A DNA stretch of 35,112 nt from Gammaproteobacteria bacterium TMED226 (lineage in GTDB: Bacteria; Pseudomonadota; Gammaproteobacteria; Magnimaribacterales; D2472), in NCBI GenBank assembly GCA_002169105.1, contig NHJX01000013.1, positions 1 through 35,112 of the forward strand. The letters are read 5' to 3'. The notes beneath the pieces were generated by a model. It had not been told where the DNA came from. It made no database searches and was given only the letters and a program-made list of their open reading frames with translations. Shown in pieces: positions 3,133 to 30,235 of the stretch. The translations under genes were made by a program, and so were the position numbers. How positions within the stretch are numbered: the stretch's first letter is position 1; each line of letters opens with the position of its first letter.

Positions 3133-3160
3133 TAGATAATAATTTTTTTTAAACTATAAT
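3133..3160 (+). promoter_or_regulatory. Promoter of tRNA-His (and probably tig)
   Basis: A consensus -10 hexamer TATAAT lies at 3155-3160, 12 nt before the tRNA 5' end, with a weak -35 TAGATA at 3133-3138 (16-bp spacer, 4 of 6 matches). The position fits transcription starting just before the tRNA. No terminator separates the tRNA from tig, so this promoter may also drive the chaperone-protease genes. Confidence 0.6.
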
Positions 3161-3172
3161 ACCGAATCTTGT

Positions 3173-3250
3173 GGCGGGCGTAGCTCAGTTGGTTAGAGCG
3201 CTGGATTGTGGCTCCGGAGGCCGTGGGTTCGAACCCCATCGCTCGCCCCA
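3173..3250 (+). tRNA. tRNA-His (anticodon GTG)
   Basis: The acceptor GCGGGCG (3174-3180) pairs with CGCTCGC (3240-3246). G3173 is the extra G-1 and pairs with discriminator C3247, the histidine identity pair. CCA is encoded at 3248-3250. The anticodon stem CTGGA/TCCGG surrounds the loop TTGTGGC with anticodon GTG at 3208-3210. The T arm has GGTTCGAACCC. The tig start codon follows 30 nt later without a hairpin terminator. Confidence 0.97.
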
Positions 3251-3280
3251 TTTACAAGATAAGAGTAATGAGCAATAAAA

Positions 3281-9310: not shown

Positions 9311-11185
9311 ATGATGGAATCACTTAGAAATTTTCTTACAGGCCCAACTCTAATTTTTGTTATTCTAATTTGTGCTTTACCTTTTGTTTTTCTCGGAACC
9401 TCTTCTATAGGTTCAGTTTTTGGTGGCTCTTTTGGCACCATAAATGGAGAAGATGTTTCAGAAGCAGATCTTAATATAGCTTCCAATACAGCCCTTCAAA
9501 GATTTAAGAGTGCTTATGGAAATGATTTTGATTTTGATATGCTAGATGAGGATGTTAGGGCTGAATCTATTAAGCAAGAATTAATAGTACAGAAAGTTTT
9601 ACAATCTGGTGCAAGGTCCTTGGGCTTTATCAATAAAAACACAATTAATGATGCAAAAAAACAGATTGTTCAAAATCCTCAATTTCAAGTTAATGGAATG
9701 TTTGATGAAAATGTATATGAAGCTCAAGTGAACTCTCTTAATTACACTAAGGAAGATTATATTGATTTGATGACAAACCTTATAGCATCAGAACTATATC
9801 GAAGCTCTTTAAATTCATTGAGTTTTGCTACTGATCATGAAATTTTCGAGCTTACGAATCTGCTAGAAAAAACTTCTGATATTAACTATATTAAGATTAG
9901 TTTTGATGGTCTAAAAAAAGAACTTGTAAATACCATGGAAGAACTAAATGAATATTACAATAACAATCAATACTTATTTTATTCAAGCGAAAAAAGAAAT
10001 TTTAAATATATCGTTTTAGATCAAGCTAATTATAAAAATAACATAGAGGTACCGCAGGAGTACCTTGCAACAAGATATGAAGATTATTTATCAAAATTTG
10101 AAAATAGTGCTCAAACTAGAATTTCTCATATCATGATTGAAAAGACTAGCTACGAATCAACACAATTAGCCTTAGAAAGGATTAAGGAAGTTGAAGAACT
10201 TTTAAATGCTGGAAACAATTTTTCTGAATTAGCAGGAATATATAGTGAAGATATTATTACAAAAGATATAGGTGGTGATCTTGATTATTTTGAAAAAGAT
10301 ATTTTTCCGGTTGAATTTGATCTTGGTATAAAAGATCTCAAATTAAATGAGATTAGTGAGATTATTGAATTAGAAGATACTTTTCATATTTTAAAAGTTA
10401 CTGAAATCAATATCCAAGAACCATTACCCGAAAATCAAATTAAAGATGAGTTAGCAAATGAACTAATAGAAACAGAATCATTGGCATTGATGATGGATGA
10501 CTTTAATGCAACAGAAGAAATGATTTTTGATAATTCTTCAATTGAAGATATTGCTGACAAGCTATCTAAAGAAGTTTTGATCTCTGAGTTTTACACTTCA
10601 AATAATTATAATTTTGATATTAGCAGTCAAGAAGTTAAAGAGTTCTTATTTTCAATTGATTCTCAAGTTAATGAATCCATTGTAATAGAGCTAGATGAAA
10701 AAGTTATCGTTATGTCTATTAGTACCATCATAGAGCCTTCTTTACAACCATATGAAATAGTGGCTGAAACTGTTGCAGATCTTCTTTCTGAATCAAAATC
10801 ACTTGAAAAGCTTGCTCTAATGGAAAATGAATTAAAGTCAATTGAAGACCCAGATGATAAACAGATTTTTATTGATGCTTATAATTATGTTTCAAGTGAT
10901 GTTTTTATTGATGTAAAGCGAAATTCATCTCTTCTGCCGAGTGAAGTATTGAATGAAGTCTTTAAGAATATTCCTGGTACTGTTATCAATGTCGATGCTA
11001 ATAATGGTGATAAGTATATTGTCGAAATAAATAATTTTACCAACCCAGCAGAATCAGACATTACTGCAATCTTAGATCAATATAGATCTTTTAGTGAAGA
11101 AAGGATGTCATCTAAGATGTCAGAAATAATCAATGAAGATGCCTTTGAATCAGCTCGAGTAAACTTAACCAATCTTGCATTTTAG
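9311..11185 (+). CDS. ppiD: Peptidyl-prolyl isomerase PpiD-like periplasmic folding factor
   Basis: PpiD is an inner-membrane-anchored periplasmic chaperone near the Sec translocon. The 624-residue protein has one N-terminal membrane segment (about 12-28, hydrophobic PTLIFVILICALPFVF). A SurA-N-like helical region follows, then a parvulin domain at about 268-362 (RISHIMIEK, FSELAGIYSED, GGDLDYFEKD), then a long C-terminal region. Length and layout match PpiD, and the lon-hupB-ppiD order is conserved. Whether the parvulin domain is catalytically active is uncertain, as in E. coli PpiD. Two adjacent ATGs (9311 and 9314) could serve as the start. The downstream oppA-like gene begins 10 nt after the stop. 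Confidence 0.92.
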   Translation: MMESLRNFLTGPTLIFVILICALPFVFLGTSSIGSVFGGSFGTINGEDVSEADLNIASNTALQRFKSAYGNDFDFDMLDEDVRAESIKQELIVQKVLQSGARSLGFINKNTINDAKKQIVQNPQFQVNGMFDENVYEAQVNSLNYTKEDYIDLMTNLIASELYRSSLNSLSFATDHEIFELTNLLEKTSDINYIKISFDGLKKELVNTMEELNEYYNNNQYLFYSSEKRNFKYIVLDQANYKNNIEVPQEYLATRYEDYLSKFENSAQTRISHIMIEKTSYESTQLALERIKEVEELLNAGNNFSELAGIYSEDIITKDIGGDLDYFEKDIFPVEFDLGIKDLKLNEISEIIELEDTFHILKVTEINIQEPLPENQIKDELANELIETESLALMMDDFNATEEMIFDNSSIEDIADKLSKEVLISEFYTSNNYNFDISSQEVKEFLFSIDSQVNESIVIELDEKVIVMSISTIIEPSLQPYEIVAETVADLLSESKSLEKLALMENELKSIEDPDDKQIFIDAYNYVSSDVFIDVKRNSSLLPSEVLNEVFKNIPGTVINVDANNGDKYIVEINNFTNPAESDITAILDQYRSFSEERMSSKMSEIINEDAFESARVNLTNLAF

Positions 11186-11189
11186 GAAG
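11184..11189 (+). promoter_or_regulatory. Shine-Dalgarno that sets the oppA-like start
   Basis: AGGAAG overlaps the ppiD stop codon and lies 6 nt before ATG 11196. It favours that ATG over the in-frame ATG at 11175, which would overlap ppiD and add seven residues ahead of the signal peptide. Confidence 0.7.
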
Positions 11190-11195
11190 ACTTTT

Positions 11196-12908
11196 ATGTA
11201 TAAAAAAATAATTTTGATGCCCTTAGCTTTAATTTTCTTCTATGGCTGTTCACAGAATATCTCTCCGGTTGATTCCGCAATTGAGTCTGGAATATTTCAT
11301 TTTGGAAATGGTTCTGAGCCTCAGGGTATTGACCCTCATATTGTTACCGGCGTGCCTGAGCACCATCTTTTAATCTCTCTATGTGAAGGGTTAACTATTG
11401 CCAACCCAAATGGCGGAGCTAATCTCCCTGGTGTTGCAGAATCTTGGACAATTAGCGAGGATGGAAAAGAATATATCTTTTATTTAAATAAAAATGCTAA
11501 ATGGTCAAATGGTGAAGTTATGACTGCCGATGACTTTGTTTGGTCATGGATGAGAATACTTACTGCGAGCTTAGGATCACAATATCCAGATATGCTTTAC
11601 TATTTAGAAGGAGCCGAGGAATATCATACATGGGTAAGTAAAGAGGATCTTAACTCCATGCTGGCTAATGAGTTATCAAATGACGCAGATCCTGAAATAG
11701 TATTTTCTATAGAACAATCTCTTATGAATCACAAACCAAAACCTTTATTTGATACTGTTGGCGTTAAAGCGATTGACGAACATACACTAAAAGTTAATCT
11801 TAAGAGTCCTACGCCTTTTTTCCTTGGACTTTTAAGTCATTACAGCACTTGGCCAGCTCATAAAGAGACAGTATTAAAATTTGGTGAGATAGATGATAGA
11901 AATGGCGAGTGGACGAGACCAGGTAACTTTGTTTGTAATGGACCGTTTCAATTAAAATCATGGGAATTAAATAATAAAATTGTTGTAGAAAAGAACCCCC
12001 ATTACTGGGACTCTTCTAAAGTCAGACTTAATGAGATGCATTTCTACCCTGTATCAAATGTTATGACTGAAGATAGAATGTTCAGAGCCGGTCAGCTCCA
12101 TTTAACCTCAACATTACCATCTCAAAAATGTCCAATTTATATTGAAGAAAATAACCCTGACTTAAGAATTGATCCATACATGGGACAATACTTTTATCGT
12201 TTGAATATTAATAATCCAGCTTTACAAGATGTGAGAGTTCGTAAAGCCTTAGCTTATACAATAAATAGAAAACTTATAGTTGAAAAAGTTACAAAATGCG
12301 GTCAAATTCCTGCTTATTCATTTACTCCACCTGGTTCAAATGGATATTATCCTGATACAGAAATACCGTTTGACCCTGAGCTTGCAAAACAATTAATGAT
12401 GGATGCTGGATATTCTGATTCTAACCCTTTTCCAAAAATTGAAATTTTATTTAATACAAATGAAGACCATAGAAAAATCGCTTTAGCTATTCAACAAATG
12501 TGGCAACAAAATCTTGGTATTGAAGTGGAACTAGTTAATCAGGATTGGAAAGTTTATCTTAGTAGAGAAATGGTTGGAGATTTTCAAGTCTCAAGAGCTG
12601 GATGGATAGGTGACTATGAGGATCCAAATACCTTTTTAGATTTAATGCGCCCTAATAGGGGTAATAATAAAACTGGCTGGGAAGATGCAAATTATGATGC
12701 AATTATGAAAAAAGCAAACTCTACAAATAATCAAGAAGAAAGATATGAGTTGCTAAATCAAGCTGAGGAATTGCTTATTGATAATATGCCAATAATTCCC
12801 TTATATACTTATGTAAGAGCTTATCAATTATCTCCAGATGTTAAAGGATACAGCCCTCATATATTAGATCATCATCATCCAAAATTTATTTATTTAGAAA
12901 GAGATTAA
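11196..12908 (+). CDS. Peptide ABC transporter substrate-binding lipoprotein (OppA family)
   Basis: This 570-residue protein belongs to SBP family 5, which binds oligopeptides and related ligands in the periplasm. It begins with a lipoprotein-type signal (MYKKIILMPLALIFFYGC), with Cys18 as the likely lipidated residue; the lipobox FYGC is imperfect. Family hallmarks are the opening GNGSEPQGIDPH, the segment LKSPTPFF, and the C-terminal hinge region DWKVYLSREMVGDFQVSRAGW. Overall it resembles E. coli OppA/MppA more than DppA. The start was placed at 11196 because of the Shine-Dalgarno and the signal peptide. Two permease genes follow at 6 nt and with an ATGA overlap. Exact ligand is unknown. 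Confidence 0.88.
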   Translation: MYKKIILMPLALIFFYGCSQNISPVDSAIESGIFHFGNGSEPQGIDPHIVTGVPEHHLLISLCEGLTIANPNGGANLPGVAESWTISEDGKEYIFYLNKNAKWSNGEVMTADDFVWSWMRILTASLGSQYPDMLYYLEGAEEYHTWVSKEDLNSMLANELSNDADPEIVFSIEQSLMNHKPKPLFDTVGVKAIDEHTLKVNLKSPTPFFLGLLSHYSTWPAHKETVLKFGEIDDRNGEWTRPGNFVCNGPFQLKSWELNNKIVVEKNPHYWDSSKVRLNEMHFYPVSNVMTEDRMFRAGQLHLTSTLPSQKCPIYIEENNPDLRIDPYMGQYFYRLNINNPALQDVRVRKALAYTINRKLIVEKVTKCGQIPAYSFTPPGSNGYYPDTEIPFDPELAKQLMMDAGYSDSNPFPKIEILFNTNEDHRKIALAIQQMWQQNLGIEVELVNQDWKVYLSREMVGDFQVSRAGWIGDYEDPNTFLDLMRPNRGNNKTGWEDANYDAIMKKANSTNNQEERYELLNQAEELLIDNMPIIPLYTYVRAYQLSPDVKGYSPHILDHHHPKFIYLERD

Positions 12909-12914
12909 TTTCGC

Positions 12915-13838
12915 ATGCTAGCGATTTTTATTAAAAGAATATTATTAGCGATACCAGTTATATTTGCAGTTGCAAGTATTACATTTTTTTTAATCAAACT
13001 AGCGCCTGGTGGTCCTTTTGATGCAGATAAAGCTGTCTCACCTCAAGTTTTAAAAAATTTAAATGAAGCCTATAACTTAGATGCTACAAACTGGGAACAA
13101 TATATCGATTATATGACAAACCTTGCTCAAGGAGACTTAGGACCATCTTTTAGATTCCCAGGAAGATCTGTAACAGAAATGATTACAACAGGGTTGCCTG
13201 TTACTTTTGAATTAGCATTTTATGCAATATTAATTGCGCTTTTCATGGGAGTCTTTTCAGGAGTTTTAGCAGCCTTGAAAAGAAATACGATGTTTGATTT
13301 TATTCCTATGGCTATAGCTATGATTGGTATATGTGTTCCTACATTTTTAATGGGACCATTGTTAGTATTAATTTTTGGCATTAATTTAGAAATTCTTCCT
13401 GTTTCAGGTTGGGGACAATTACCTGGTGACAAAATTTTACCTTCTCTTACCCTTGGCTTTGCATATGCTGCATATATAGCAAGATTGAGCAGAGGCGGAA
13501 TGTTAGAAGTATTGAATCAAGATTTTATAAGAACCGCTAGAGCAAAAGGCCTTACTGAAAAGATGGTAGTCATCAAGCATGCAATGCAGGGTGGATTAAT
13601 ACCAGTTGTTTCTTTTTTAGGACCTGCAATAGCTGGTCTTCTTGCAGGCTCATTTGTAGTTGAAACAATTTTTCAGATTCCTGGTCTAGGAAGGTTTTAT
13701 GTTGAAGCAGCGTTCAATAGGGACTATACGATGATTTTGGGTACAACAATATTTTTTTCAGCAATGATTGTTTTCTTTAACCTGCTATCAGATCTTGCTG
13801 CGTTATGGTTAAACCCAAGATCAAGGGACGCTTCATGA
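12915..13838 (+). CDS. oppB: Peptide ABC transporter permease (OppB family)
   Basis: This is one half of the membrane channel of the importer. The 307-residue protein has the OppB layout: an N-terminal membrane helix (about 10-28), a periplasmic segment ending GDLGPSFRFPG, then five hydrophobic helices. The ATPase-coupling EAA loop is RTARAKGLTEKMVVIKHAM (about 210-228), and the last part is the typical GxFVVETIFQIPGLG segment. It begins 6 nt after the binding-protein gene, and its TGA stop overlaps the next start as ATGA. The symbol is used for the family; the transported peptide class is not known. Confidence 0.92.
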   Translation: MLAIFIKRILLAIPVIFAVASITFFLIKLAPGGPFDADKAVSPQVLKNLNEAYNLDATNWEQYIDYMTNLAQGDLGPSFRFPGRSVTEMITTGLPVTFELAFYAILIALFMGVFSGVLAALKRNTMFDFIPMAIAMIGICVPTFLMGPLLVLIFGINLEILPVSGWGQLPGDKILPSLTLGFAYAAYIARLSRGGMLEVLNQDFIRTARAKGLTEKMVVIKHAMQGGLIPVVSFLGPAIAGLLAGSFVVETIFQIPGLGRFYVEAAFNRDYTMILGTTIFFSAMIVFFNLLSDLAALWLNPRSRDAS

Positions 13839-14683
13839 ACAATTCTCTTTGGTCAGATGCGATTCATAGACTTACCCGAAACAAGGCAGCCATGCTTGGT
13901 GCATTTATACTTATTTTATTGATAATTGTAGCAGCGCTCGCACCATGGATTGCCCCTTATTCATATTCATATCAGGATTTAAATCTTGGAGCCAGTCCTC
14001 CATCTGCAGACCACTTACTAGGTACGGACGTTTTAGGTAGAGATTTATTAAGCAGGATTTTATATGGAGCAAGAATTTCACTATTAGTCGGTTTTGTTGC
14101 AACAGGAGTTGCTTTGGTTATTGGTGTGTCGTGGGGAATTATTGCTGGTTATGCAGGTGGAAAAGTTGATTCAATAATGATGAGGATTGTAGATGTACTT
14201 TATGGACTTCCTTTTATTATTTTTATAATTCTTCTAATGGTAATCTTTGGAAGAAATCTATGGTTGCTTTTTGGTGCAATTGGAGCTGTAGAGTGGTTAA
14301 CAATGGCAAGAATAGTAAGAGCTCAGGTAATAGGTTTAAAAAATCAAGAATTTGTTTTAGCAGCAAAAGCAATGGGAGTTTCAAATCTATCAATGTTTAG
14401 AAGACACCTATTACCGAATATCCTTGGACCTATTGCCGTTTATGCAACATTAACTATTCCTCAAGTTATGCTTTTAGAGGGGTTTTTAAGTTTTCTTGGT
14501 CTTGGAATTCAACCCCCTATGAGTAGCTGGGGTACTTTAATAAAGGATGGTGTTGAGTCTATGGAAGAGTATAGCTGGTTACTTATTTATCCTGGTATAA
14601 CTTTTACCATAACGCTTTTTGCTTTAAATTTTTTTGGGGACGGGCTAAGAGATGCGCTGGATCCAAAAACCACGGATGGCTAA
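13835..14683 (+). CDS. oppC: Peptide ABC transporter permease (OppC family)
   Basis: The second channel subunit, 282 residues from the start chosen here. It has the OppC opening SLWSDAIHRLTRNKAAMLGAF, the conserved HLLGTDVLGRDLLSRILYGAR, and the EAA loop FVLAAKAMGVSNLSMFRRHLLPN. The last motif is FLSFLGLGIQPPMSSWG. The ATG at 13835 overlaps the oppB stop (ATGA) and has AGGGA 6 nt upstream. The longer frame from 13805 would put ten extra residues inside oppB and is less likely. No oppD or oppF ATPase gene follows; the next gene is convergent and overlaps the last 4 bp. The ATPases must therefore be encoded elsewhere or shared with another importer. Confidence 0.92.
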   Translation: MNNSLWSDAIHRLTRNKAAMLGAFILILLIIVAALAPWIAPYSYSYQDLNLGASPPSADHLLGTDVLGRDLLSRILYGARISLLVGFVATGVALVIGVSWGIIAGYAGGKVDSIMMRIVDVLYGLPFIIFIILLMVIFGRNLWLLFGAIGAVEWLTMARIVRAQVIGLKNQEFVLAAKAMGVSNLSMFRRHLLPNILGPIAVYATLTIPQVMLLEGFLSFLGLGIQPPMSSWGTLIKDGVESMEEYSWLLIYPGITFTITLFALNFFGDGLRDALDPKTTDG

Positions 14684-19581: not shown

Positions 19582-22503
19582 ATGAAAAATATAAATTATT
19601 TATTTTCTTTATTATTTTTGTTGCCTGTTGCAATTTTTGCTCAAGAAAGTTCTGAGGAAAATGTAGAAGAAATTGTTGTAGTTGGTTCTCAAATTAAAGG
19701 AGCATCAATTACTGGAGCGCTTCCTGTTACTGTTATTTCTTCTGAAGATATTGATATCTTAGGCGTTGAAGATGGTACAGAATTATTAGAAAACATGACT
19801 GAACAAGGTCTTAATTACTTTACAGAAGCTGAATCAGATTCAGGTGGTGTTAATTCAGCAAGAGGTGATGTTGGAGCTTACAACATAAGAAATATGGGTG
19901 TAGGTAATACATTGATCTTATTAAATGGAAGAAGACTAGTTAATAACGCTGGGTATCAGACTGAGTTACTAGGTGGAGACTATGTTCCAACAATGAGTGT
20001 TAACTCTAATTTAATACCTACTATGGGCCTTGATCGTGTTGAGGTTCTAAAAGATGGTGCATCAGCCATATACGGAGCTGACGCTGTTGCAGGTGTTGTT
20101 AATAATGTTTTAAAGACAGATTATGAAGGTTTTGAGATTGCTTTGAGAAATCAAGGTTATGACAATTTTAGTGCTGTTGATGACAGAATTACTCTTAAAT
20201 GGGGTAAAGACATGAATGGTGGCAAAACCAATATATCTCTTATGTATGATTTTTATGATAGAGATGGTATTGCAGCAGCTGAAGATCCAAGATGGGGGGA
20301 CTCAGATCATAGAAAATGGATTCCTGCAGATTCTTTATGGGCTGGAGATACATCTTTTAGAAATTTATATTCTGGTAAATGGGCGCAGTTAGATATGCGT
20401 GGAAGGACTGGGTACTCTGATAGTGCAGGTGAAATGCAAATTATCCCAATTGCTGATCCAAGATGTGCAAGATCTGATTCAAAAGATACTGGTTACGGTA
20501 CCTGTTTAGCTGTTGATACAACATCAATGGCAAATGGTGAATATTATATTAATCCAGGACAATTCAGAGATTACAGAGGAGAACTTGAAAGAAGTAACTT
20601 ATTTGTTTTTGTAAATCATGAATTAGATGGCGGCTCAGAATTTTTTGCTGAAATCGGTTCTTACAATTCTGAATATATGCGTCATAAAGAACCAGCAGGT
20701 GACTTTAGCACAGCATTGCTTGAATTAGGCCCTAACTATTACTGGGCTAATGCTATAGGTTTATCAGCAGATAATTCTTCATCTAATAAGGCTGTAAGAA
20801 TTGATAACTGGAGACCAGATATTGGTCCTAGAATCATCAATGTTGAAAAAGAAACGTATAGATATTTATTTGGTTTCAGAGGAACCATGGATTCTGGCTG
20901 GGACTGGGAAACAGCTGTTTTACATTCTAAGGCTATTTCAGAAGATTTAACTGAAAATAGACTATCAAATTCTTTATTACAAGCTGGTTTAAATGACTCA
21001 ACTTCAAGCGCAATTAATATTTTCTCTGCTGATGTTAAAACAGCCTTAGCACCAGCTATTGTTGATGTGTCTAGAAATGATACTAGTGAGTTAAATACAT
21101 TTGACTTTAAAATGACAAACCCAGAAGTATTCAATATGCCAGCAGGACCTGTCGGCATGTTGGTTGGTTTTGAATATCGTTCAGAATCTTATTCGGACGA
21201 TAGAGATCCAAGATTAGATGGTACGATTCAGTTTCAATCTGCTGTAACTGGTTTAGGATTCCCATTTGTGGGTGATGTTCTTGGCTCAAGTCCAACTGTG
21301 GATACTTCAGCAAAAAGATCTACTAATTCTGTTTTTGCAGAAATGGTCATGCCTTTAACAAATAAAATGGAGGCTCAATTTGCTATGAGGCATGAGGATC
21401 CAGATGACACTAAATCTTCAACAGTATGGAAAGCTGCTTTAGGTTGGGAAATTGCTAATGATGTTTTGCTTAGAGGTTCTAAATCAACATCATTTAGAGT
21501 TCCAAACTTAATACAAGCTAATCAATTATACGTAACAAGAAGTGGTAACGTTGATGATGCAGTTGGTGAATTTGTTGGTGCAAATGATCCATTAGACGAT
21601 AGATACCAAATTCAAAGTTATAGAATAGGTAATCCAGAATTATTACCAGAAGAATCTGATAATACTTCTTGGGGTTTTGTTTGGACTCCAAGCAATATTG
21701 AAGGTCTTACAGTAACATGGGATGACTGGAGAATTGAGAAAGATAATACAATTGTTCTTTTTGGAAGAACAAATGCAATGGTAGCTGATCTCGTTGCTCG
21801 AATTAATTATGGTCCTGACAATTGTGGTGGTTATAACAATCCTGCAATCATAAGAGATCAAAATCCTGGATATACATCAGCTGAAATTGCAAAATTTGCA
21901 GCAGCTGGAATTTGTCCTGCAGGGGAGGCGTTTACAATTTATGATGAATATACCAACGCCGCAACAAGATCTATAGCAGGCCAAGATATTGGTATCTATT
22001 ATGATATCTCAACTGAGGTTGGTGATTTCAATATAACAGTTAATCATTCTGAGACTACTGAATTTGAACAGAAACCAACAAATGCATATCAGGCATTAGT
22101 TGATGCTCAGGCATCAGGAGTAATACCTTTTGACATAACCTTTGCTGGTTTTGGAAATCTTGCTGGTCTTGACGGAAACTATGTTGAAAAAACTAGTGTT
22201 AAGTTTAACTACAGAGTAGGAGACTTAGGTGTGCAATTATCTAGCCTAAGAAAAGGCGAGTTTTATCACAGTAGTGAAACCAGATCAGATGGCACGAGAT
22301 ATGTTATACCTAGTATGACGACTGTGAATGCTTCAGTTTATTATTGGTTTGATATTGGAGATCAAAAGGCCAGAGTTAAATTCGCAGTGAAAAACTTAGA
22401 AGACGAAAGGGCTCCATTGGCTGATAGATTCTATGGTTTCTTCGCAGATGCTCATCAAGATTATGGTAGAAACTTTTATCTTGATATAAAAGTTAAATTT
22501 TAA
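19582..22503 (+). CDS. TonB-dependent outer-membrane receptor
   Basis: This is an energised outer-membrane transporter of 973 residues. It has a signal peptide (hydrophobic to about residue 20, likely cleavage after IFA), then a TonB box EIVVVGS (30-36). A plug domain follows with LILLNGRRLV and VEVLKDGASAIYGADAVAGVVNN cut short by KTDYEG. A 22-strand-type barrel ends in the terminal Phe of YLDIKVKF. The long plug-proximal loops and the plug style resemble the large receptors common in Alteromonadales, Sphingomonads and SAR86, whose substrates are mostly unknown. The next genes, a DASS-type transporter and a gamma-glutamyltransferase, hint at an organic-acid or gamma-glutamyl substrate. It has its own promoter and terminator. 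Confidence 0.93.
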   Translation: MKNINYLFSLLFLLPVAIFAQESSEENVEEIVVVGSQIKGASITGALPVTVISSEDIDILGVEDGTELLENMTEQGLNYFTEAESDSGGVNSARGDVGAYNIRNMGVGNTLILLNGRRLVNNAGYQTELLGGDYVPTMSVNSNLIPTMGLDRVEVLKDGASAIYGADAVAGVVNNVLKTDYEGFEIALRNQGYDNFSAVDDRITLKWGKDMNGGKTNISLMYDFYDRDGIAAAEDPRWGDSDHRKWIPADSLWAGDTSFRNLYSGKWAQLDMRGRTGYSDSAGEMQIIPIADPRCARSDSKDTGYGTCLAVDTTSMANGEYYINPGQFRDYRGELERSNLFVFVNHELDGGSEFFAEIGSYNSEYMRHKEPAGDFSTALLELGPNYYWANAIGLSADNSSSNKAVRIDNWRPDIGPRIINVEKETYRYLFGFRGTMDSGWDWETAVLHSKAISEDLTENRLSNSLLQAGLNDSTSSAINIFSADVKTALAPAIVDVSRNDTSELNTFDFKMTNPEVFNMPAGPVGMLVGFEYRSESYSDDRDPRLDGTIQFQSAVTGLGFPFVGDVLGSSPTVDTSAKRSTNSVFAEMVMPLTNKMEAQFAMRHEDPDDTKSSTVWKAALGWEIANDVLLRGSKSTSFRVPNLIQANQLYVTRSGNVDDAVGEFVGANDPLDDRYQIQSYRIGNPELLPEESDNTSWGFVWTPSNIEGLTVTWDDWRIEKDNTIVLFGRTNAMVADLVARINYGPDNCGGYNNPAIIRDQNPGYTSAEIAKFAAAGICPAGEAFTIYDEYTNAATRSIAGQDIGIYYDISTEVGDFNITVNHSETTEFEQKPTNAYQALVDAQASGVIPFDITFAGFGNLAGLDGNYVEKTSVKFNYRVGDLGVQLSSLRKGEFYHSSETRSDGTRYVIPSMTTVNASVYYWFDIGDQKARVKFAVKNLEDERAPLADRFYGFFADAHQDYGRNFYLDIKVKF

Positions 22504-22520
22504 TTAAACTTTATATACAA

Positions 22521-22546
22521 AAGGGAGTTTATAACTCCCTTTTTTT
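22521..22546 (+). terminator. Rho-independent terminator after the first receptor gene
   Basis: AAGGGAGTT (22521-22529), loop TAT, AACTCCCTT (22533-22541) forms a 9-bp stem with a run of seven T. It lies 17 nt after the stop and separates the receptor from the DASS transporter gene, which starts 24 nt further on. Confidence 0.9.
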
Positions 22547-22569
22547 ATGAAAAAATATTAGTATAAGAT

Positions 22570-24072
22570 ATGCCAGCATATAAAAATAAAGGTTTTTTCA
22601 TAGGCTTAGTTGCTTTTACATTAATAGTATTATGCGGTATCTATGATTTTATTCCATCTAGCTTGGCGGCATTAGATGGCAAGGAATTTGATAATAATTC
22701 TAAATCTGTAGATAGCAAATCTGCTTGGTTTGTTTTGGCTGTTTTAATTTTAATGGCAATCTGGTGGGCGACTGAAGCTCTTCCGGTTGCTGTTACTTCA
22801 CTATTACCATTGGCATTATTTCCATTATTAGATATTACAAGTTTTCAATCTGCTGCTGATCCATATGCTAATAAAAATATTTATTTATTTCTTGGTGGGT
22901 TTATTTTGGCACTTGGTATTGAAAGCTCTGGCTTGCATAAAAGAATGGCTTTAAAAATGATTATTGCAATTGGATCAAGTGGCCCAAAACTAATAGCTGG
23001 TTTTATGATAGTGGCTGCTTTAATTAGCATGTTTGTTATGAATACATCTACAACTTTAATGTTGTTACCAATTGGTTTGGCAGTGTGTGCAGTCATTGGC
23101 TCAACCATACCTAATATTTCTGATCAGCAAAAAAAATATTTTGATACTGCGCTTTTAATAGGAATCGCTTATGCAGCAACAATTGGAGGAATGTCAACAA
23201 TCATCGGAACAGCTCCGAACTTAGTTTTCGTTACCTACATGGAAGTTGAACACAATATTGAAATAGACTTTTTAAATTGGATGAAGTTAGGCATTCCAGT
23301 TGCTATTGTCATGTTGACTTTTGCATGGTTAATTTTAACTAAATTAGTTTTTCCAATGAGCTTTGCAGCAACAAATGAAACAAAATACAAACTTAATCAA
23401 ATGCTTAATGATCTTGGACCTTTGAATAAAGATGAAATAAAAATCTCATTAATTTTTTCACTTGCAGTGATTTCTTGGATGACAAGCAGAATAATAAGAG
23501 AAAAATTTGGTATTGGCTTAGAAGATGCAGGAGTAGCAATTATTATTGCCATCTTATTATTTACCATTCCTTCATCATCGAATAAGTCTCAGGATTTAAT
23601 GCAGTGGGATAAAACTTCTAAATTACCCTGGGGATTACTTATTTTATTTGGTGGTGGATTGTCATTAGCAGCACAGGTCTCAAGCTCAGGTCTTGGCATA
23701 TGGATCGGTGAGGGATTAACTGTTCTCAAATTAGTACATCCTATAATCTTGATCTTCGCTGTTGCAACTATGATAATTTTTTTAACTGAAGTGACTAGTA
23801 ACGTTGCGACAACAAGTACATTCCTTCCTGTCATAGGGGCATTAGCTTTAGCTATCGGAGTGATGCCTGTTTCTCTTGCAATTCCAGTATGTTTAGCAGC
23901 TAGCTGCGCATTTATGCTTCCGGTGGCAACTCCTCCAAATGCTATAGTTTATGGATCAGGTAAATTCACTATTGCCACAATGATGAAAGCTGGATTCTTT
24001 CTAAATCTAGTTGGCATTTTAATAGTAACTTTGTTCTCATATTATCTAGCACCAATAATTTTTACTCAATGA
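22570..24072 (+). CDS. SLC13/DASS family sodium-coupled anion (dicarboxylate-type) transporter
   Basis: A 500-residue inner-membrane protein with about 11 hydrophobic segments and no signal peptide. DASS family features are the early IWWATEALPVAVTSLLPLALFP (64-85, two halves), the first substrate/sodium motif MNTSTTLMLLP (157-167) and the second EVTSNVATTSTFLP (about 407-420). The region ends with VATPPNAIVYGSG, also typical. Members import succinate, citrate, sulfate or similar anions with sodium. Which anion cannot be read from sequence. The TGA stop overlaps the start of the gamma-glutamyltransferase gene as ATGA, so the two are translationally coupled. This suggests the transporter takes up a product of that enzyme, or acts on a related substrate. 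Confidence 0.9.
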   Translation: MPAYKNKGFFIGLVAFTLIVLCGIYDFIPSSLAALDGKEFDNNSKSVDSKSAWFVLAVLILMAIWWATEALPVAVTSLLPLALFPLLDITSFQSAADPYANKNIYLFLGGFILALGIESSGLHKRMALKMIIAIGSSGPKLIAGFMIVAALISMFVMNTSTTLMLLPIGLAVCAVIGSTIPNISDQQKKYFDTALLIGIAYAATIGGMSTIIGTAPNLVFVTYMEVEHNIEIDFLNWMKLGIPVAIVMLTFAWLILTKLVFPMSFAATNETKYKLNQMLNDLGPLNKDEIKISLIFSLAVISWMTSRIIREKFGIGLEDAGVAIIIAILLFTIPSSSNKSQDLMQWDKTSKLPWGLLILFGGGLSLAAQVSSSGLGIWIGEGLTVLKLVHPIILIFAVATMIIFLTEVTSNVATTSTFLPVIGALALAIGVMPVSLAIPVCLAASCAFMLPVATPPNAIVYGSGKFTIATMMKAGFFLNLVGILIVTLFSYYLAPIIFTQ

Positions 24073-25799
24073 AACTATTTTATATATTTATTTTTTTCGC
24101 ACTAAATTTAAATGCTCAACAAAGTTATATTGATTATTTGTCTCCATATCATCCCGTAGTTAGTAACTCCGGAATGGTTGTATCACAAAATAATTTCTCT
24201 TCCGATATTGGTGTAGAGATTCTTAGTAAAGGAGGTAATGCAATTGATGCAGCTGTTGCAGTAGGTTTTTCACTTGCGATAACTTTACCAAGAGCTGGGA
24301 ATCTTGGTGGAGGCGGCTTTATGTTGGTTTACCTTAAAGAAAAAGATGAAATCTTTTATATAGATTATAGAAGCAAGTCCCCCTTAAATTCCTCAATTGA
24401 TAATATTTTTAATCTAAATGGTAAAAATATTAATCCAAAAGATTTTACTAATGATATGTTTAATACAACACGATATGGATATAAGGCACCAGCAATTCCA
24501 GGAACAGTTGCAGGATTATTAGAAGCCCATGAAAAGTTTGGATCTTTACCACTTGAGGAAGTTTTAGCACCTGTGATAAGGCAAGCAAGAGAAGGAATAT
24601 TAGTTTCTTATGATCTAGAAAAAGCTATTGAAGATACACATCAGCTTAAGAAAGATCCAGAATCTCTAAAGATTTATTTTAAAAATGGAAGCGCAATAAA
24701 AGAAAATTCAATTTTTAAAAGACCGGACTTAGAAAAAACATTTAAGCTCATAGCATCTAATGGAAAGGATGGTTTTTACAAAGGAGATATTGCTAAAGCA
24801 ATAGTAAAAGCAATGAATGAAAATGATGGATTATTTTCATTAACTGATTTTGAAAACTATAAAGTGCAAATTAGCGAACCAATTGTCGCTTCTTATAGAG
24901 GTAATTTGGTTTTCACAGCTGGACCTCCATCAGGCGGAGGGATAACCCTTCTAACAGCTTTAAATATATTAAGTTTTTTTGATTTACAAAAGTTTAATAA
25001 AGATTCAGCTATCACATATCATTTGATTTCTGAGGCTCTTAGAAGAGGTCATAATAATAGATCACACTTTGTAGGTGATCCTGACTATTTTGATGTTCCA
25101 ATAAATCAGTTATTATCAAAAAAAAGAACAATGGAGCTTGCTAAGACCATTGATATTAAAAAAGCTTCTAAATCTACGGTTGTAAAACCTTTAGAGCTTA
25201 TAAAAGAAAGCAGGGATACAACTCATTTTTCAATAATAGATAAAGAAGGTAATGCAGTTTCTAATACTTATACTCTTGGTTACTCATTTGGCTCAGGAGT
25301 AACTATTCCCAACACTGGTATTTTAATGAATAATCAGATGAATAATTTTGCCTATAGATATGGAGACAAAAATATAAGGGGTAGAGGAGCAAGCACAGGA
25401 AATAGATTTGAGGCAGGAAAAAGCCCAATGAGTACTATGGCGCCAACTATGATTTTTGATAAAGAGGGTGATCTTATGATGATAACAGGATCTCCAGGAG
25501 GCTCTTTAATACCTGCAGCAATATTAAGAGTTATTACTGGCGTAATCGATTTTGACTTGGATATAGGTGAAGCAACTATGTTGCCAAGAGTTCATAAAGA
25601 TTGGCCAACTACTGGTATATTGTATGAGAGGACATTAAATTCTGATGTTGTAAGAATTATAAATAAAAATATCGGTCATAAAATGACACCTGAACACACA
25701 ATGGGAAGCACACAAAGTATTCATATTATTGATCAAATTAATTATGGATTTGCTGACCTTAGAAGACCTAACGCATCTGTCTCTGTTCAATCTAATTAA
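24069..25799 (+). CDS. ggt: Gamma-glutamyltransferase/hydrolase, periplasmic
   Basis: GGT is an Ntn-hydrolase that cleaves gamma-glutamyl bonds, for example in glutathione, releasing glutamate or transferring it. The 576-residue precursor has a signal peptide (MKLFYIFIFFALNLNAQQ, cleavage about residue 16-18). The self-cleavage site is at Asp383/Thr384 in DTTHFSI, where Thr384 becomes the N-terminal nucleophile of the small subunit. Substrate-binding motifs are LGGGGF (large subunit), YTLGYSFGSG, LMNNQMNNF, SPMSTMAPT, TGSPGGS and MGSTQSIH. All key elements are intact. It is coupled to the upstream DASS transporter by ATGA, and its last 8 bp overlap the convergent M20 gene. Confidence 0.95.
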   Translation: MKLFYIFIFFALNLNAQQSYIDYLSPYHPVVSNSGMVVSQNNFSSDIGVEILSKGGNAIDAAVAVGFSLAITLPRAGNLGGGGFMLVYLKEKDEIFYIDYRSKSPLNSSIDNIFNLNGKNINPKDFTNDMFNTTRYGYKAPAIPGTVAGLLEAHEKFGSLPLEEVLAPVIRQAREGILVSYDLEKAIEDTHQLKKDPESLKIYFKNGSAIKENSIFKRPDLEKTFKLIASNGKDGFYKGDIAKAIVKAMNENDGLFSLTDFENYKVQISEPIVASYRGNLVFTAGPPSGGGITLLTALNILSFFDLQKFNKDSAITYHLISEALRRGHNNRSHFVGDPDYFDVPINQLLSKKRTMELAKTIDIKKASKSTVVKPLELIKESRDTTHFSIIDKEGNAVSNTYTLGYSFGSGVTIPNTGILMNNQMNNFAYRYGDKNIRGRGASTGNRFEAGKSPMSTMAPTMIFDKEGDLMMITGSPGGSLIPAAILRVITGVIDFDLDIGEATMLPRVHKDWPTTGILYERTLNSDVVRIINKNIGHKMTPEHTMGSTQSIHIIDQINYGFADLRRPNASVSVQSN

Positions 25800-27237
25800 C
25801 TTTTCTATAGTCTAAAGGAGGCTCTCTATCACCTAATAATGGTTTGTATTGAAAATCATTTCCTACACGTGATTTAAGTTCATTTTTTGAATCTATAATA
25901 ATTGATGGATTGCTAAAAATTTCAACAGCACTTTTTGCTAAAGTTTTTGCCGCTAGTTCGGCTCCTTTTAATCCTATAGAAGTTCCACCTGAAGCAACCG
26001 CTTGCCAAGAATGTGATGCAGTTCCTGGAACCCATGTGGCAGTTCTTAAGCCCGCAGTTGGTACATTCCAACTAACATCCCCTACATCTGTTGATCCATA
26101 ACCATGAGATGTTTTAAACGGCCTTACTAATTCTTGAGATCCTATTTCGTTATCAGGCTCAAAGAAAGTAGTGTATATCTCAGATGCATATTCATTTTCA
26201 TAACCATCGTAAGTGATTCCTCCTAAATTTTTTAAGTTCCCATGTACAACTTTTTGCAATGTATCATTTGGTAACAAAGAAAAATTTCCATGCATCACCT
26301 CATATGTCATTTTTGTATCTGTTCCCATAGCAGCTCCAGAAGCGGTATTTACGACTCTTGCAAACAAGTCTTCTACAATCGACATTTTTGGATGTCTTAC
26401 ATAGTAATAAACTTCAGCAAGATCAGGCACAACGTTAGGAGCAAGTCCACCCTTAGTAATTACATAATGAATTCTAGACTCTTGAGGTATATGCTCTCTC
26501 ATCATATTCACCATATGATTCATAGCTTCAACTCCATCAAGCGCGGATCTTCCTTGTTCAGGAGAGCCTGCTGCATGAGCAGATATACCATTAAAAGTAA
26601 ATTTAGCAGATTTATTAGAATTTGATGTTCTTGAATTTGCACTGTTTGCATCATCGGGATGCCAATGAAGAACAATATCAACGTCATTAAATAAACCTTC
26701 TCTAACCATATAAACTTTGCCCGAACCACCTTCCTCAGCTGGTGTTCCATAAAATCTTATTGTTCCTGGAATATTGTTTTTAATTATCCATTCTTTTACC
26801 GACACTGCAGCCCATGCAGATGCTGCACCAAATAAGTGATGACCACATGCATGTCCAGCTCCTGTAGGGTTATCTAAAACTTCTTTAAATGGTGAAGTTG
26901 TTTGTGCTAATCCGGGAAGGGCATCAAACTCTCCAAGGATTCCAATGACTGGACCACCATTATTAAATTCTGCAATGAACGCAGAGGGTATTCCAGCAAC
27001 ACCCTTTTTAATAGTGAAGCCAGCATCTTCAAGAGAGCTTGCTAATAAACTAGAACTTTGTTCTTCCTGATAACCTAGCTCAGCATAGTTCCATATTTCT
27101 AATGCTACATTTTGAAATTTTGTTTTGTGTGATTCTATGCTTTCCAAAACGTCATCACTTAAAATATTATTGCTTAATAATATTAAAATTAATGCACTAA
27201 TTGATTGTTTGCGAAATAAACTTTTTTTTCTACCCAT
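25792..27237 (-). CDS. Exported M20-family amidohydrolase, AbgB-like
   Basis: This 481-residue metallopeptidase resembles AbgB, the B subunit of p-aminobenzoyl-glutamate hydrolase, and related N-acyl amino acid amidohydrolases. Metal-site motifs are GHACGHHLFG, PAEEGGSGK and LHWHPDD. The dimerisation domain has SAHAAGSPEQGRSALDG, and the family signature STDVGDVSW...TWVPGTASHSWQ closes the catalytic domain. Unlike cytoplasmic AbgB it starts with a signal-like segment: basic GRKKSLFRK, then hydrophobic SALILILLSNN, with possible cleavage before DDVLES. No in-frame downstream start would keep this segment. The signal-coding part overlaps the thiolase-like gene by 49 bp. No AbgA partner lies in the window. 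Substrate is uncertain. Confidence 0.87.
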   Translation of the reverse strand: MGRKKSLFRKQSISALILILLSNNILSDDVLESIESHKTKFQNVALEIWNYAELGYQEEQSSSLLASSLEDAGFTIKKGVAGIPSAFIAEFNNGGPVIGILGEFDALPGLAQTTSPFKEVLDNPTGAGHACGHHLFGAASAWAAVSVKEWIIKNNIPGTIRFYGTPAEEGGSGKVYMVREGLFNDVDIVLHWHPDDANSANSRTSNSNKSAKFTFNGISAHAAGSPEQGRSALDGVEAMNHMVNMMREHIPQESRIHYVITKGGLAPNVVPDLAEVYYYVRHPKMSIVEDLFARVVNTASGAAMGTDTKMTYEVMHGNFSLLPNDTLQKVVHGNLKNLGGITYDGYENEYASEIYTTFFEPDNEIGSQELVRPFKTSHGYGSTDVGDVSWNVPTAGLRTATWVPGTASHSWQAVASGGTSIGLKGAELAAKTLAKSAVEIFSNPSIIIDSKNELKSRVGNDFQYKPLLGDREPPLDYRKVN

Positions 27238-28637
27238 TCTTTTTTCTCCATTGACCTAATAATAGATTCATCAGATGAAGTAATCAATTTTCTTTTACCA
27301 TCATCACAATCTATGAACATTATTGATACAGGTTTATTGTTCTTATTTATTATTGTATAACCAATAATTTTTCCATAACCTTCTTCTAATGAAGATATTT
27401 CAATAGGCTGCTCAATTTGCATAGCATTATTTGTAAAATCTTTGTGTATGAAATCTATTGCAGGTTTTTTTGACCATAAAGCATATGACTGCTTAGTCAT
27501 CATTCCAGAAACCCCTGTTACAATACCTACTTTATTATTATCTTCTCTGATTTTTGAAATCATTTTAATTGTTGAATGAATTACAAAGCTATTTAAAGGT
27601 CCTCCCGCAAATGGCATCCCCCCTGTAATTGTCATTTCCTTATTTTTTTTTAAATTAAGTGATTTTGCAAACATTGAAACAGCAACTGGAAAGCAACTAT
27701 AAAGGTCATATAGGTTGGGTGTAATATTATTTAATTCACAGATTTTTAATATAAATTCTGCAGCTAATTTCATTCCACACGGGTTAATTAAATTGGGTCT
27801 CTGTAGGGTAGCAATCATATGATTTGTTTCAGATGAGGCAAGAGGATAAACTCTTTTGCTAAATGGAATATCTAATTCATCAGCAACTTCATCAGAACAA
27901 ATGATCATTGCACAGGACTGATTTACATTCCAAGAGGTGCAGTGATATTTATTATAAGGAAATGCTTGCAATGGATTATCTTTACTCTTAATTAAAATCT
28001 CTTTTGAATTAAGAGACTTATCTCTCCATGCATCTTTGTTATTAGATGCTATTTTAGAAAAATCTGAATAGATATTTGCAATCTCTCTATGGTATTCATC
28101 AAAGCTCTTGTTTGATGATGAGCGCAGCGCACTTTCTAAAATCGCATAATAGCCAACTGCCATTAATCCAAGTACATCCTCCTCAACTTTAAGATGTAAA
28201 TCATCTTTAGCTTTTATATAGAAGTCGGGGTTGGTAGTTAGCTTAGTCTCTTCAAAGGTCTGGTTTTCTATGTCGCTTCGTAGTATTTTATATCTAGCCT
28301 CACCACCAAGAATTAATCCTGCTTTAATTTTTCCTTTTACTATTTTATTACAAGTAGAGTTGATTAAATTTTGTTGCAGCACTCCTATTTTAGTAACGCT
28401 AGTTTTAATATCTTTTATTCCGTTATTGTCAGCAACCCATCTAGCAGGATCTCTATAACGCCAAAAACCTTTTGGAACTTGAACTTCATCAATATATTGT
28501 TTTATTTTTTGATTTCCAGAGTCATTGACAGCAACTTTGAAAGCCTTGTCCATTAAGATAAGAGCTTCATCCAACTCATTAAAATTTGCTTTTTGTTGAT
28601 AAGTGCCAATACCAACAACAACTGGTCTATTTTTCAT
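27189..28637 (-). CDS. Thiolase-like / acetyl-CoA acetyltransferase-family protein
   Basis: A 482-residue protein of the large acetyl-CoA acetyltransferase/SCP2-thiolase group, with a thiolase fold to about residue 380 and a C-terminal OB-like extension (about 400-470). Recognisable segments are VVVGIGTYQQ at the N-terminus, AGLILGGEARY (about 106-116), LYSCFPVAVSMFAKSLNL (about 314-331), and TITGGMPFAGGPLNSFVIHS. The usual nucleophile Cys followed by a small-residue pair before the GGAE segment is not seen; NSTCNKI is the nearest. It may therefore be a non-classical thiolase with a different chemistry. Substrate is unknown. It lies 4 nt after the methyltransferase and overlaps the M20 gene, so it belongs to the fabI operon. 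Confidence 0.75.
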   Translation of the reverse strand: MKNRPVVVGIGTYQQKANFNELDEALILMDKAFKVAVNDSGNQKIKQYIDEVQVPKGFWRYRDPARWVADNNGIKDIKTSVTKIGVLQQNLINSTCNKIVKGKIKAGLILGGEARYKILRSDIENQTFEETKLTTNPDFYIKAKDDLHLKVEEDVLGLMAVGYYAILESALRSSSNKSFDEYHREIANIYSDFSKIASNNKDAWRDKSLNSKEILIKSKDNPLQAFPYNKYHCTSWNVNQSCAMIICSDEVADELDIPFSKRVYPLASSETNHMIATLQRPNLINPCGMKLAAEFILKICELNNITPNLYDLYSCFPVAVSMFAKSLNLKKNKEMTITGGMPFAGGPLNSFVIHSTIKMISKIREDNNKVGIVTGVSGMMTKQSYALWSKKPAIDFIHKDFTNNAMQIEQPIEISSLEEGYGKIIGYTIINKNNKPVSIMFIDCDDGKRKLITSSDESIIRSMEKKEWVEKKVYFANNQLVH

Positions 28638-28641
28638 TAAT

Positions 28642-29265
28642 TTATATAGACGCGAAGCCCCAATAGTTATAGCCTACAATTTTTGGTGTGCTTGGAAGGT
28701 ACATTTGTTCTAGGTTGTGAACTTTGAATCCAGCTTTGAGTAATAGATCTGGTATATCCCTGTTGATGTTACAACCTCCAAATAATTTGCCCCAAATAGG
28801 ATTGATTCTATTTTGCCATTTCGATACTGAATAGTCTGGAGCAAGACCATGTTCGCAAAATAGGATATTAGCATCTGGCTTCATTACTCTTTTGATCTCA
28901 TTAAAAGAATCATCAATTTTTTCAATTGAGCATAATGTGTAGGTAATCAGTACAGTATCTACAGAATTTGATTTTAATTTAATCTCTTCTGCACCATTAA
29001 TTAAAAAATCTATATTAATATCAAATTCTAAAGCATTTTTGATAGCTATATCACAAAGTTCAGCAGATGGATCAAGCCCATATATCTTATCTATATTTGA
29101 AAGATTGTAATGAGGTAAATTTAGGCCTGAGCCTATGCCTACCTCAAGAACTGTACCAGCAGCATGAGGAACTATTTTATCTCTTTGATATTTTATTGGT
29201 TTTGTTGAACAACAGACATCCAAAAGCTTAGGAAGAACATATTTGTCATAAGCTTTCTTAATCAT
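28642..29265 (-). CDS. Class I SAM-dependent methyltransferase, METTL7/UbiE-like
   Basis: A 207-residue cytoplasmic methyltransferase. The SAM-binding motif I is [16 protein letters not shown], motif II is GLDPS, and [25 protein letters not shown] contains the acidic adenine-binding part and motif IV. The C-terminal half ([29 protein letters not shown] cut as two pieces, LLKAGF) closely resembles the METTL7/TMT1 type, whose animal members methylate alkyl thiols. Bacterial members are mostly uncharacterised; a lipid or thiol substrate would be a guess. The ATG overlaps the fabI stop (ATGA), so the pair is coupled. Confidence 0.82.
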
Positions 29266-30050
29266 TCTTCAATATCATCTAAAGGCATTGCAGCAATATT
29301 AAAGCCAGCGTCTACGTAAGTTATTTCACCAGTAATACCACTTGCATAATCAGAGCACAAAAAAGCAGCAACATTTCCAACTTCTTCTGCTGTTATAGTT
29401 CTTCCAAGCGGCGCTCTTTTTGAATGTTGACTTAACATTTTTCTAAAATTCTTAACACCTGAAGCAGCCAATGTTTTTATAGGACCTGCAGAAATAGCAT
29501 TCACTCTTACATTATCTCTTCCCATTGAAGCTGCAAGAAATCTCGTGTTGGCCTCTAAGCTTGCTTTGGCAAGTCCCATAACATTGTAATTTGGGAGTGT
29601 TTGAGTAGACCCTAAATAGGTTAGGGTGAGGAGAGCTGAATTATCATTCAGCATAGGTTTTGCTTCTCTTGCCATTGCAGTAAAGCTATAAGAGCTAATA
29701 TCATGAGCAATTTTAAAACCTTCTCTATTAGTGACATCAACAAAATTTCCTTCCAACTGGTCTGCTGGCGCGTAACCTATTGAATGAATAAATCCATCAA
29801 ATTTTTCCCATCTTTTACTCAACTTATTAAAAGATGATTGAATAGAATCATCGTTCGATACGTCGCATTCTATTAAAATATCAGATCCACATGATTCTGC
29901 TATAGGTCCTAAATTCTTTAAAAGTCGCTCATTTTGATATGTGAAAGCTAATTCTGCGCCTTCTCGATGCATAGCATGAGCAATTCCTGCTGCAATTGAA
30001 TATTTATTTGCAAGCCCAGATATCAAAAATTTTTTATTTTTTAGTAACAT
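29262..30050 (-). CDS. fabI: Enoyl-[acyl-carrier-protein] reductase (FabI)
   Basis: FabI performs the last reduction of fatty-acid elongation (NADH-dependent in most members). From ATG 30050 the product has 262 residues, exactly the usual length, and starts [24 protein letters not shown], whose first 20 residues fit the family. The active site is Tyr145-(x9)-Tyr155-(x6)-Lys162 ([22 protein letters not shown]). The triclosan-contact region reads IGYAPADQL, with Tyr in place of the usual Phe after the conserved Gly92. A longer frame to 30137 would add 29 residues ahead of the conserved start and is rejected. It heads a four-gene minus-strand unit: fabI, methyltransferase, thiolase-like, M20. 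Confidence 0.95.
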
Positions 30051-30235
30051 TTTTATTAAATTGTTGGTTTTATATCCATATTGTAAGAGAAAAATACCTA
30101 AATAAATAAATTTATATAGACTTTTGAGTTTATACAAATGGAAACTATTGATATAAAAAATACTTATATTTAATTATAAATAATGAACAAAAATGTAGAT
30201 TTCTTATAAGAACTCTGAAACAATAGGATTCATAA

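Follow-up and report, generated by a model that had tools for sequence, protein, structure and literature searches.

A conserved SAR86 gene unit comprising a TonB-dependent receptor, a DASS-type transporter and a γ-glutamyltransferase-family protein with an altered amine pocket

The window considered here, that is, the whole stretch of DNA that was analysed, comprises 35,112 nucleotides of contig NHJX01000013.1 (positions 1 to 35,112, forward strand; assembly GCA_002169105.1) from Gammaproteobacteria bacterium TMED226, and it carries three consecutive plus-strand genes encoding a TonB-dependent receptor (TBDR), a DASS/SLC13-type anion transporter and a member of the γ-glutamyltransferase (GGT) family. 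The genome is of the SAR86 type, with SAR86 cluster bacteria as the nearest named loci, and the source assembly amounts to 775,625 bases at 63% completeness. The first gene (19582..22503) encodes a TBDR of 973 residues with a PF07715 plug and a PF00593 barrel. It is followed by the DASS gene (22570..24072; 500 residues; TIGR00785 292.3 bits against a cut-off of 198.6) and by the gene of a GGT-family Ntn hydrolase with an altered acyl-donor pocket, referred to here as GGT1 (24069..25799; TIGR00066 465.9 bits against a cut-off of 357.85, PF01019 482.6 bits), which is 38% identical to Escherichia coli GGT. The DASS stop and the GGT1 start overlap in an ATGA that is read directly in the window sequence. 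The N-termini of the TBDR, of GGT1 and of a convergent M20-family hydrolase discussed below are signal-like, as judged by eye from the sequences, without a signal predictor. An initial annotation of this DNA had described this gene order, coupling, family membership and these export signals, all of which are borne out by the open reading frames, the profile scores and the N-termini; it had overlooked a terminator-like hairpin between the TBDR and DASS genes (22519..22546, plus strand) as well as an overlap between the M20 gene and the end of a thiolase-like gene.

The conservation of the three genes was surveyed around GGT, using the 82 full-length matches of the window protein (window excluded) with at least 53% identity. 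Two of these loci start at the GGT gene, which leaves 80 SAR86 loci that are testable for the upstream gene, and DASS is the next same-strand gene upstream of GGT1 in 77 of them: 76 by the open reading frame rule, plus G017, whose DASS gene (774-2126) sits just before GGT (2144-3826). In 47 of these 76 loci the DASS stop and the GGT1 start overlap, in 28 the two lie 0-30 bases apart and in one they are more than 30 bases apart; these figures use longest-ORF starts and thus tend to overstate overlap. A TBDR precedes DASS in all 68 loci with enough upstream DNA, directly in 48 and across one alpha/beta-hydrolase-like (ABH) gene in 20. Taking the 107 SAR86-family genomes together, GGT1 and DASS occur jointly in 83, GGT1 without DASS in three (G020 and G075, at contig ends, and G102, with a partial GGT1 only), DASS without GGT1 in four (G012, G016, G043 and G070, two of these DASS matches being partial) and neither in 17. 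Genomes with only a weak or partial best GGT match and no GGT1 row (including G013, G016, G079, G089 and G105) were scored as lacking GGT1, so that broken copies may have been missed, and, since related genomes are not independent, Fisher values on this co-occurrence are not to be read as chance probabilities. In part of the clade the TBDR-(ABH)-DASS-GGT block, with a LysR gene in some genomes, is inverted whole between gltX and the M20 gene; the subgroup with this inversion (L053, L054, L055, L056, L058, L060, L062, L064, L069 and L080) has an added EthD-like gene after GGT. TBDR, DASS and GGT1 thus form one conserved unit, and this conservation makes a route involving periplasmic cleavage well grounded, the localisation being predicted. 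Among the open-licence PMC matches listed, no paper title concerned this gene set.

The hairpin in the TBDR-DASS intergenic region (AAAGGGAG...CTCCCTTTTTT) has a fold z-score of -4.03, and none of 200 shuffles folded as low. It consists of a strong stem of 9 bp (99.3% of cells paired) with a conserved GGGAG/CTCCC core, followed by T, and is kept in all 48 relatives in which the TBDR lies directly upstream of DASS. Co-variation is confined to a single pair, the loop-closing one (C-G 26, U-A 20), and the exact form of the hairpin was found at only 1-3 sites per genome in the six SAR86 genomes searched. A simple terminator scan of the window did not list it. The element reads as a terminator that would lower DASS-GGT1 expression relative to that of the receptor.

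SAR86 carries two GGT lineages, the DASS-linked GGT1 and an unlinked paralogue, GGT2, both of which are present in the window genome. In a tree of a 68-row subset, the 20 rows of GGT1 form a clade of their own, separate from GGT2 and from the remaining GGTs in the sample, with a support of 100/100. The two lineages can be compared at the residues that hold the acyl donor. As set out in the portions of PMC8062742 drawn on here, the donor α-carboxylate is bound, in E. coli numbering, by Arg114, Ser462 and Ser463, and the α-amine by Glu423, Glu442 and Asp445 of Bacillus subtilis GGT, which correspond to E. coli positions 411, 430 and 433; a lid gate in which Tyr444 is bonded to Asn411 is described as well. 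At positions 411/430/433, GGT1 reads G/Q/N in 85 of 85 sequences and GGT2 reads N/E/D in 18 of 18. Relative to the expected α-amino set (N/E411, Q/E430, D433), GGT1 therefore fits only at Q430, a residue shared with E. coli, positions 411 and 433 being changed with respect to both E. coli GGT and GGT2. In the window, the N411 position, which belongs to both the α-amino site and the lid gate, is G404 (codon 25278..25280), and the stretch Q430-D433 is Q423-N426 (codons 25335..25346). The catalytic and carboxylate-binding residues are kept: T384 (codon 25218..25220; E. coli Thr391, responsible for autoprocessing and acting as the catalytic nucleophile) in 83 of 83 sequences, both oxyanion glycines in 83 of 83, R101 (codon 24369..24371; Arg114) in 82 of 83, with one Lys, and Ser462 in 82 of 83. 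The S463 position is Thr in 83 of 85, and the lid Tyr444 (E. coli numbering) is Tyr in only one of 85 GGT1 and one of 18 GGT2 sequences, the latter otherwise having Phe. Conservation reaches at least 95% within each of the two groups in 110 columns. Fixed differences separate the groups in 19 of these columns, including all three amino-site columns and S463; if columns are taken as independent, the chance of finding the three amino-site columns among 19 of 110 is about 0.0045.

A larger sample of the class (369 genomes) returned 28 new GGT loci, of which 26 have the N/E/D set, one (L213, a SAR86-order relative) has G/Q/N and one (L232) has G/L/N. The AlphaFold model of GGT1 has a pLDDT of 74.9 and its listed fold matches are GGT-family chains, but the stretches 404-408, 431-434 and 436-443 fall below 50, and for that reason the model was not used to argue about the pocket.

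Changes of the same kind have been described in other GGTs. As reported in PMC8062742, the E. coli variant D433N loses transpeptidation and gains glutaryl-7-ACA acylase activity, the B. subtilis variant E423Y/E442Q/D445N raises this acylase activity 963-fold, and the residue of class IV acylases that corresponds to D433 is Asn; this source also stands here for Suzuki 2004 and Yamada 2008. Likewise, in what is drawn from PMC11421214, Pseudomonas nitroreducens GGT acts on both glutaryl and sulfobutanoyl amides once it carries D406N, and its cleavage of glutaryl-leucine improves when D386 is replaced by Asn or Ser; by equal spacing from the catalytic Thr, the D386 position is Ser in 85 of 85 GGT1 sequences. 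The initial annotation had proposed a γ-glutamyl or N-acyl-glutamate substrate. The γ-glutamyl part of this proposal is weakened by the difference between GGT1 and its paralogue at all three α-amino positions and, on the residues just listed, the substrate is better sought among acid amides that lack a free α-amine than among γ-glutamyl compounds.

The transporter points in a similar direction. Its best solved relatives are human NaCT (265 bits), SLC13A2 (246) and NaDC3 (229), followed by VcINDY and SLC13A1 (215), and DASS proteins import di- and tricarboxylates according to the part of PMC7553777 consulted. Of the two substrate motifs, the second is SNV as in NaCT and the first is MNT instead of SNT, the Asn being kept in both. 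MNT is found in all 121 SAR86 rows, in which some genomes are counted twice, while 34 rows from outside SAR86 comprise TNT in 22, MNT in eight and SNT in four. The receptor, in turn, is modelled (AlphaFold, pLDDT 77.5) as a generic TBDR fold, best matched by BtuB (VIA-align Z 30.6). BtuB, Cir, PirA, ChuA, FoxA, FepA and others are matched about equally (VIA-align Z 27-31 among the matches listed; Foldseek), and structure was therefore set aside as a source for its ligand, the model being silent on this point.

From these observations, namely the gene order, the coupling, the conservation of the block, the fixed pocket change and the presence of a normal-pocket paralogue in the same genome, we infer the localisation, activity, substrate and product transport of the SAR86 unit as follows. 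The TBDR would move across the outer membrane a conjugate in which an acid and an amine are joined by an amide bond; secreted GGT1, with its changed pocket, would cut the amide of this conjugate in the periplasm; and the NaCT-like DASS protein, translationally coupled to GGT1, would import the freed acid, probably together with Na+. Since GGT1 keeps the catalytic Thr, the carboxylate Arg and the first Ser (the second being Thr) and differs from its paralogue at all three amino positions, the freed acid is likely to lack an α-ammonium group, and the combination of a pocket without an amine grip and a dicarboxylate-type importer suggests the same. This acid would most likely be dicarboxylate-like, for instance glutaryl-like, rather than plain γ-glutamate. 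An uptake unit that works in this way, with the TBDR importing the conjugate, GGT1 freeing an acid without a free α-amine and DASS importing that acid, is the explanation that we tentatively favour, as a plausible reading about which considerable doubt is warranted.

A number of findings weigh against such a unit. In three of the 80 testable loci (G001, G042 and G053) a TBDR lies directly before GGT1 and DASS is found elsewhere in the genome, and G043 has DASS without GGT1. The hairpin after the TBDR argues against one even transcript and qualifies the word "operon". Outside SAR86, the genome G118 encodes the G/L/N GGT of L232 and gave no DASS match at 1e-80, which means that a change of this kind in the pocket does not go with DASS in every case. 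The match to SLC13A1 leaves room for an anion such as sulfate as the substrate of DASS. CsiD, which represents one glutarate route, exceeded its family cut-off in none of the 107 genomes, with 14 weak matches, nearly all of them short and C-terminal; glutarate catabolism via CsiD was thus discarded as support. In the material taken from PMC8062742, the activity of the E. coli variant S463T is given as lower by 40%. In addition, the replacement of N411 by Gly, together with the changed lid, could instead admit N-acylated γ-glutamyl groups, such as those of folate polyglutamates or peptidoglycan peptides, a case that is taken up below.

The foremost alternative is that GGT1 is an ordinary periplasmic γ-glutamyl hydrolase acting on glutathione or γ-Glu peptides, with glutamate or another acid being imported and feeding glutamate dehydrogenase. 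The family score lies far over the cut-off, the catalytic Thr is kept, as is most of the site that binds the carboxylate, and a glutamate dehydrogenase with ELFV domains is indeed encoded elsewhere in the window (1684-3084, minus strand), as the initial annotation had pointed out. E. coli D433N retains 82% of hydrolysis (PMC8062742, as excerpted), so that Asn alone is compatible with γ-glutamyl substrates, which also speaks against the uptake of an acid without α-amine. So does a paper on SAR86 isolates (PMC11582366), which, in the parts relied on here, reads ggt as glutathione use, stating that SAR86 turns glutathione into cysteine by ggt, and does not separate the two kinds. However, the amino site of GGT1 differs from that of the paralogue in 85 of 85 sequences, this genome and the clade also have another GGT whose site is normal, and the nearest solved relatives of DASS are SLC13 di/tricarboxylate and anion carriers. 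An ordinary GGT is thus regarded as unlikely, albeit a rival to be taken seriously.

The hydrolase on the far side of GGT1 is relevant to another alternative. It is an M20-family amidohydrolase (25792..27237, minus strand; TIGR01891 246.4 bits against a cut-off of 153.75), and the term "AbgB-like" that it had received is correct, with 39% identity to E. coli AbgB over 472 residues, its full length (E 3.8e-109), as against 26% over 314 residues to AbgA. Its gene is joined to a minus-strand run of thiolase-like, methyltransferase and FabI genes (27189..30137), in the order FabI-methyltransferase-thiolase-M20, where the M20 start overlaps the thiolase-like end. M20 adjoins the unit in 60 of 80 loci and is seen in 68 of 86 genomes with GGT1 and in two without; in several genomes (e.g., G010, G080 and G088) it is missing in place, with the flanks present and the DASS-GGT1 pair kept. 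The route proposed in the initial annotation, with two periplasmic enzymes, is supported in part: comparison of neighbourhoods places receptor, DASS and GGT together in relatives, with a mixed result for M20. Given its separate gene run, its place outside the inverted block and the 18 of 86 GGT1 genomes, some of them incomplete, in which it was not found, M20 was rejected as a core part and is a frequent neighbour of the unit.

The second alternative would assign M20 a role: GGT1 may cut γ-glutamyl bonds in which the α-amine is acylated, as in folate polyglutamates or the γ-D-Glu of peptidoglycan peptides, with G404 and the lid making room and M20 possibly completing a folate-fragment route. 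With Gly in place of N411 and without the lid Tyr, the pocket would be more open where the amine lies, and both the likeness of M20 to AbgB and its position beside the unit fit this idea. Conversely, the 18 genomes mentioned, in which M20 was not found, weigh against it, and no second M20 gene that could represent an AbgA partner was found among the Pfam-scanned window genes, to which the search for AbgA was confined. Altogether, N-acylated substrates appear improbable. More doubtful still is the notion that GGT1 is an unprocessed or inactive paralogue that is kept for some other reason. The precedent is Bgh1 of Helicobacter bilis, a GGT paralogue with matching D-to-N and S463T-type changes which, going by the passages of PMC3279353 used here, is unprocessed, lacks GGT activity and revealed no activity as an acylase, a further point against the favoured explanation. 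Yet Bgh1 also has a Gly-to-Ser change which, by numbering, falls on an oxyanion glycine that GGT1 keeps (PMC3279353, same passages). Across 25 aligned sequences neither the TT pair nor either of the oxyanion glycines varies, the mean column identity is 70%, and GGT1 is counted in 86 of 107 mostly incomplete genomes. We therefore consider inactivity quite improbable. Finally, although the gene order around this locus is shared locally among SAR86 genomes for many kilobases, it is very improbable that the genes are mere neighbours in an inherited order without joint function, as the block inverts whole, the DASS-GGT1 coupling is kept while the M20, thiolase-like and methyltransferase genes vary in their presence, and a TBDR stands directly before DASS, with other hydrolases beside the pair, in 12 of the 28 named loci from outside SAR86.

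The hydrolases in these last loci vary with the lineage. For instance, Amidohydro_3 and M14-family proteins lie by TBDR-DASS in the Woeseiaceae-like L086, L089, L096 and L097, L090 being without M14. In Glaciecola/Paraglaciecola (L099, L107, L108, L110 and L111) the neighbour is a DUF4886 protein, with M14 in several, and in NOR5-3 (L112) Amidohydro_3, M14 and DUF4886 are all present. We take the Amidohydro_3 protein to be D-aminoacylase-like and the DUF4886 protein to be SGNH-like, as labels only. A Maricaulaceae locus (L094) has the order TBDR-ABH-DASS, and the SAR92 locus L109 (8517-18065) has in a row a fumarase/adenylosuccinate-lyase-type gene, DASS, TBDR and two GGT genes, the first GGT being extremely divergent and the other having a normal pocket. 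Elsewhere, among the matches listed, DASS and GGT are adjacent only in G137, in the same order as in SAR86.

In the DASS tree, the TBDR-linked Alteromonadaceae, Woeseiaceae and Maricaulaceae share one branch of 26 rows (99/97), with some unlinked members, and SAR86 is placed in another. A TBDR homologue was not detected directly upstream of DASS in any of L261-L280, a further set of 20 loci from the class, L265 having one three genes off, which rules out a general TBDR-DASS rule. The combination of a receptor, an acid importer and an exchangeable hydrolase thus recurs as a module, but in some DASS lineages only.

Further neighbours of DASS were recorded in the course of this comparison. DASS neighbourhoods with both Amidohydro_3 and M14-family genes are those of L086, L089, L096, L097, L101 and L112, and the M14 cluster member of L099 also matches the succinylglutamate desuccinylase/aspartoacylase model. 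A gene of the same cluster as the fumarase/adenylosuccinate-lyase-type gene of L109 occurs near DASS in Maricaulis (L102 and L105). In Woeseiaceae and relatives (L084, L085, L088, L091, L095, L098, L100, L106 and L261), DASS is directly followed by a pyridoxamine-phosphate-oxidase-like gene. In the window itself, a peptide ABC importer with an OppA-like binding protein and two OppB/C-type permeases lies about 5 kb upstream of the unit (11175-14683); its binding protein stays under the cut-off of both the OppA model and the glutathione GsiB model, the OppA score being the higher of the two.

The protein families involved are known already, and what is new, as far as the sequences go, is a DASS-linked kind of GGT with a changed amine pocket that is fixed across SAR86. 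SAR86 ranks with the most abundant bacteria of the surface ocean, and many of its details are still obscure, as stated in the sections of PMC11582366 drawn on. In its widest form, the interpretation would be that SAR86 as a whole has a natural dicarboxylate-monoamide hydrolase, derived from GGT by replacement of the amine pocket and joined to an SLC13-type importer and a TBDR. This would constitute an unrecognised periplasmic route for a common marine amide conjugate, the equation of ggt with glutathione use would be wrong for one of the two ggt kinds, and TBDR, NaCT-like DASS and an exchangeable hydrolase (GGT, Amidohydro_3, M14, DUF4886 or alpha/beta-hydrolase) would represent a general acid-conjugate uptake module in marine Proteobacteria. 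Taken in full, this is possible, though rather doubtful. If the favoured explanation is right, the substrate marked by this gene is another than its present reading as an enzyme of glutathione degradation implies, a natural clade has fixed the change that engineers introduced to obtain hydrolases of glutaryl amides, and the locus offers a genomic clue to a compound that is common in dissolved organic matter.

When the unit is set beside known systems, the closest counterpart of GGT1 is E. coli GGT (MEROPS T03), with which it shares the fold, the catalytic Thr, the oxyanion glycines, the carboxylate-site Arg and Ser462, Q430 and a signal-like N-terminus. In contrast to that enzyme, N411, D433 and the lid Tyr444 are replaced in GGT1, S463 is Thr in nearly all sequences, and the gene is linked to TBDR and DASS. 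The SLC13/DASS Na+ cotransporters NaCT, NaDC1 and VcINDY are the closest solved relatives of the window DASS, which differs from them in its MNT first motif. A more distant relative of GGT1 with the GGT fold is HpxW (GGT-family, solved structure 5hft, 24% identity), which belongs to a purine pathway. HpxW is named oxamate amidohydrolase in the part of PMC12625717 consulted, and the substrate so named, going by the name only, is a dicarboxylic monoamide without an α-amine. With the class IV cephalosporin (glutaryl-7-ACA) acylases and the engineered D433N and P. nitroreducens D406N variants, as described in the portions of the sources cited above, GGT1 shares Asn at 433 (N426, 85 of 85), and with the B. 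subtilis E442Q variant it shares Gln at 430. This likeness is drawn via the literature, and GGT1 stands apart in being natural and clade-wide and in having Gly at 411. At the level of the whole system, Helicobacter pylori is said to couple periplasmic cleavage by GGT to import of the product. A paper title on the GGT and a glutamate importer of this species appears in the portion of the reference list of PMC3279353 that was consulted. The SAR86 arrangement differs from the H. pylori one in that the importer is an SLC13-type carrier encoded inside the unit, and in that a TBDR would supply the substrate.

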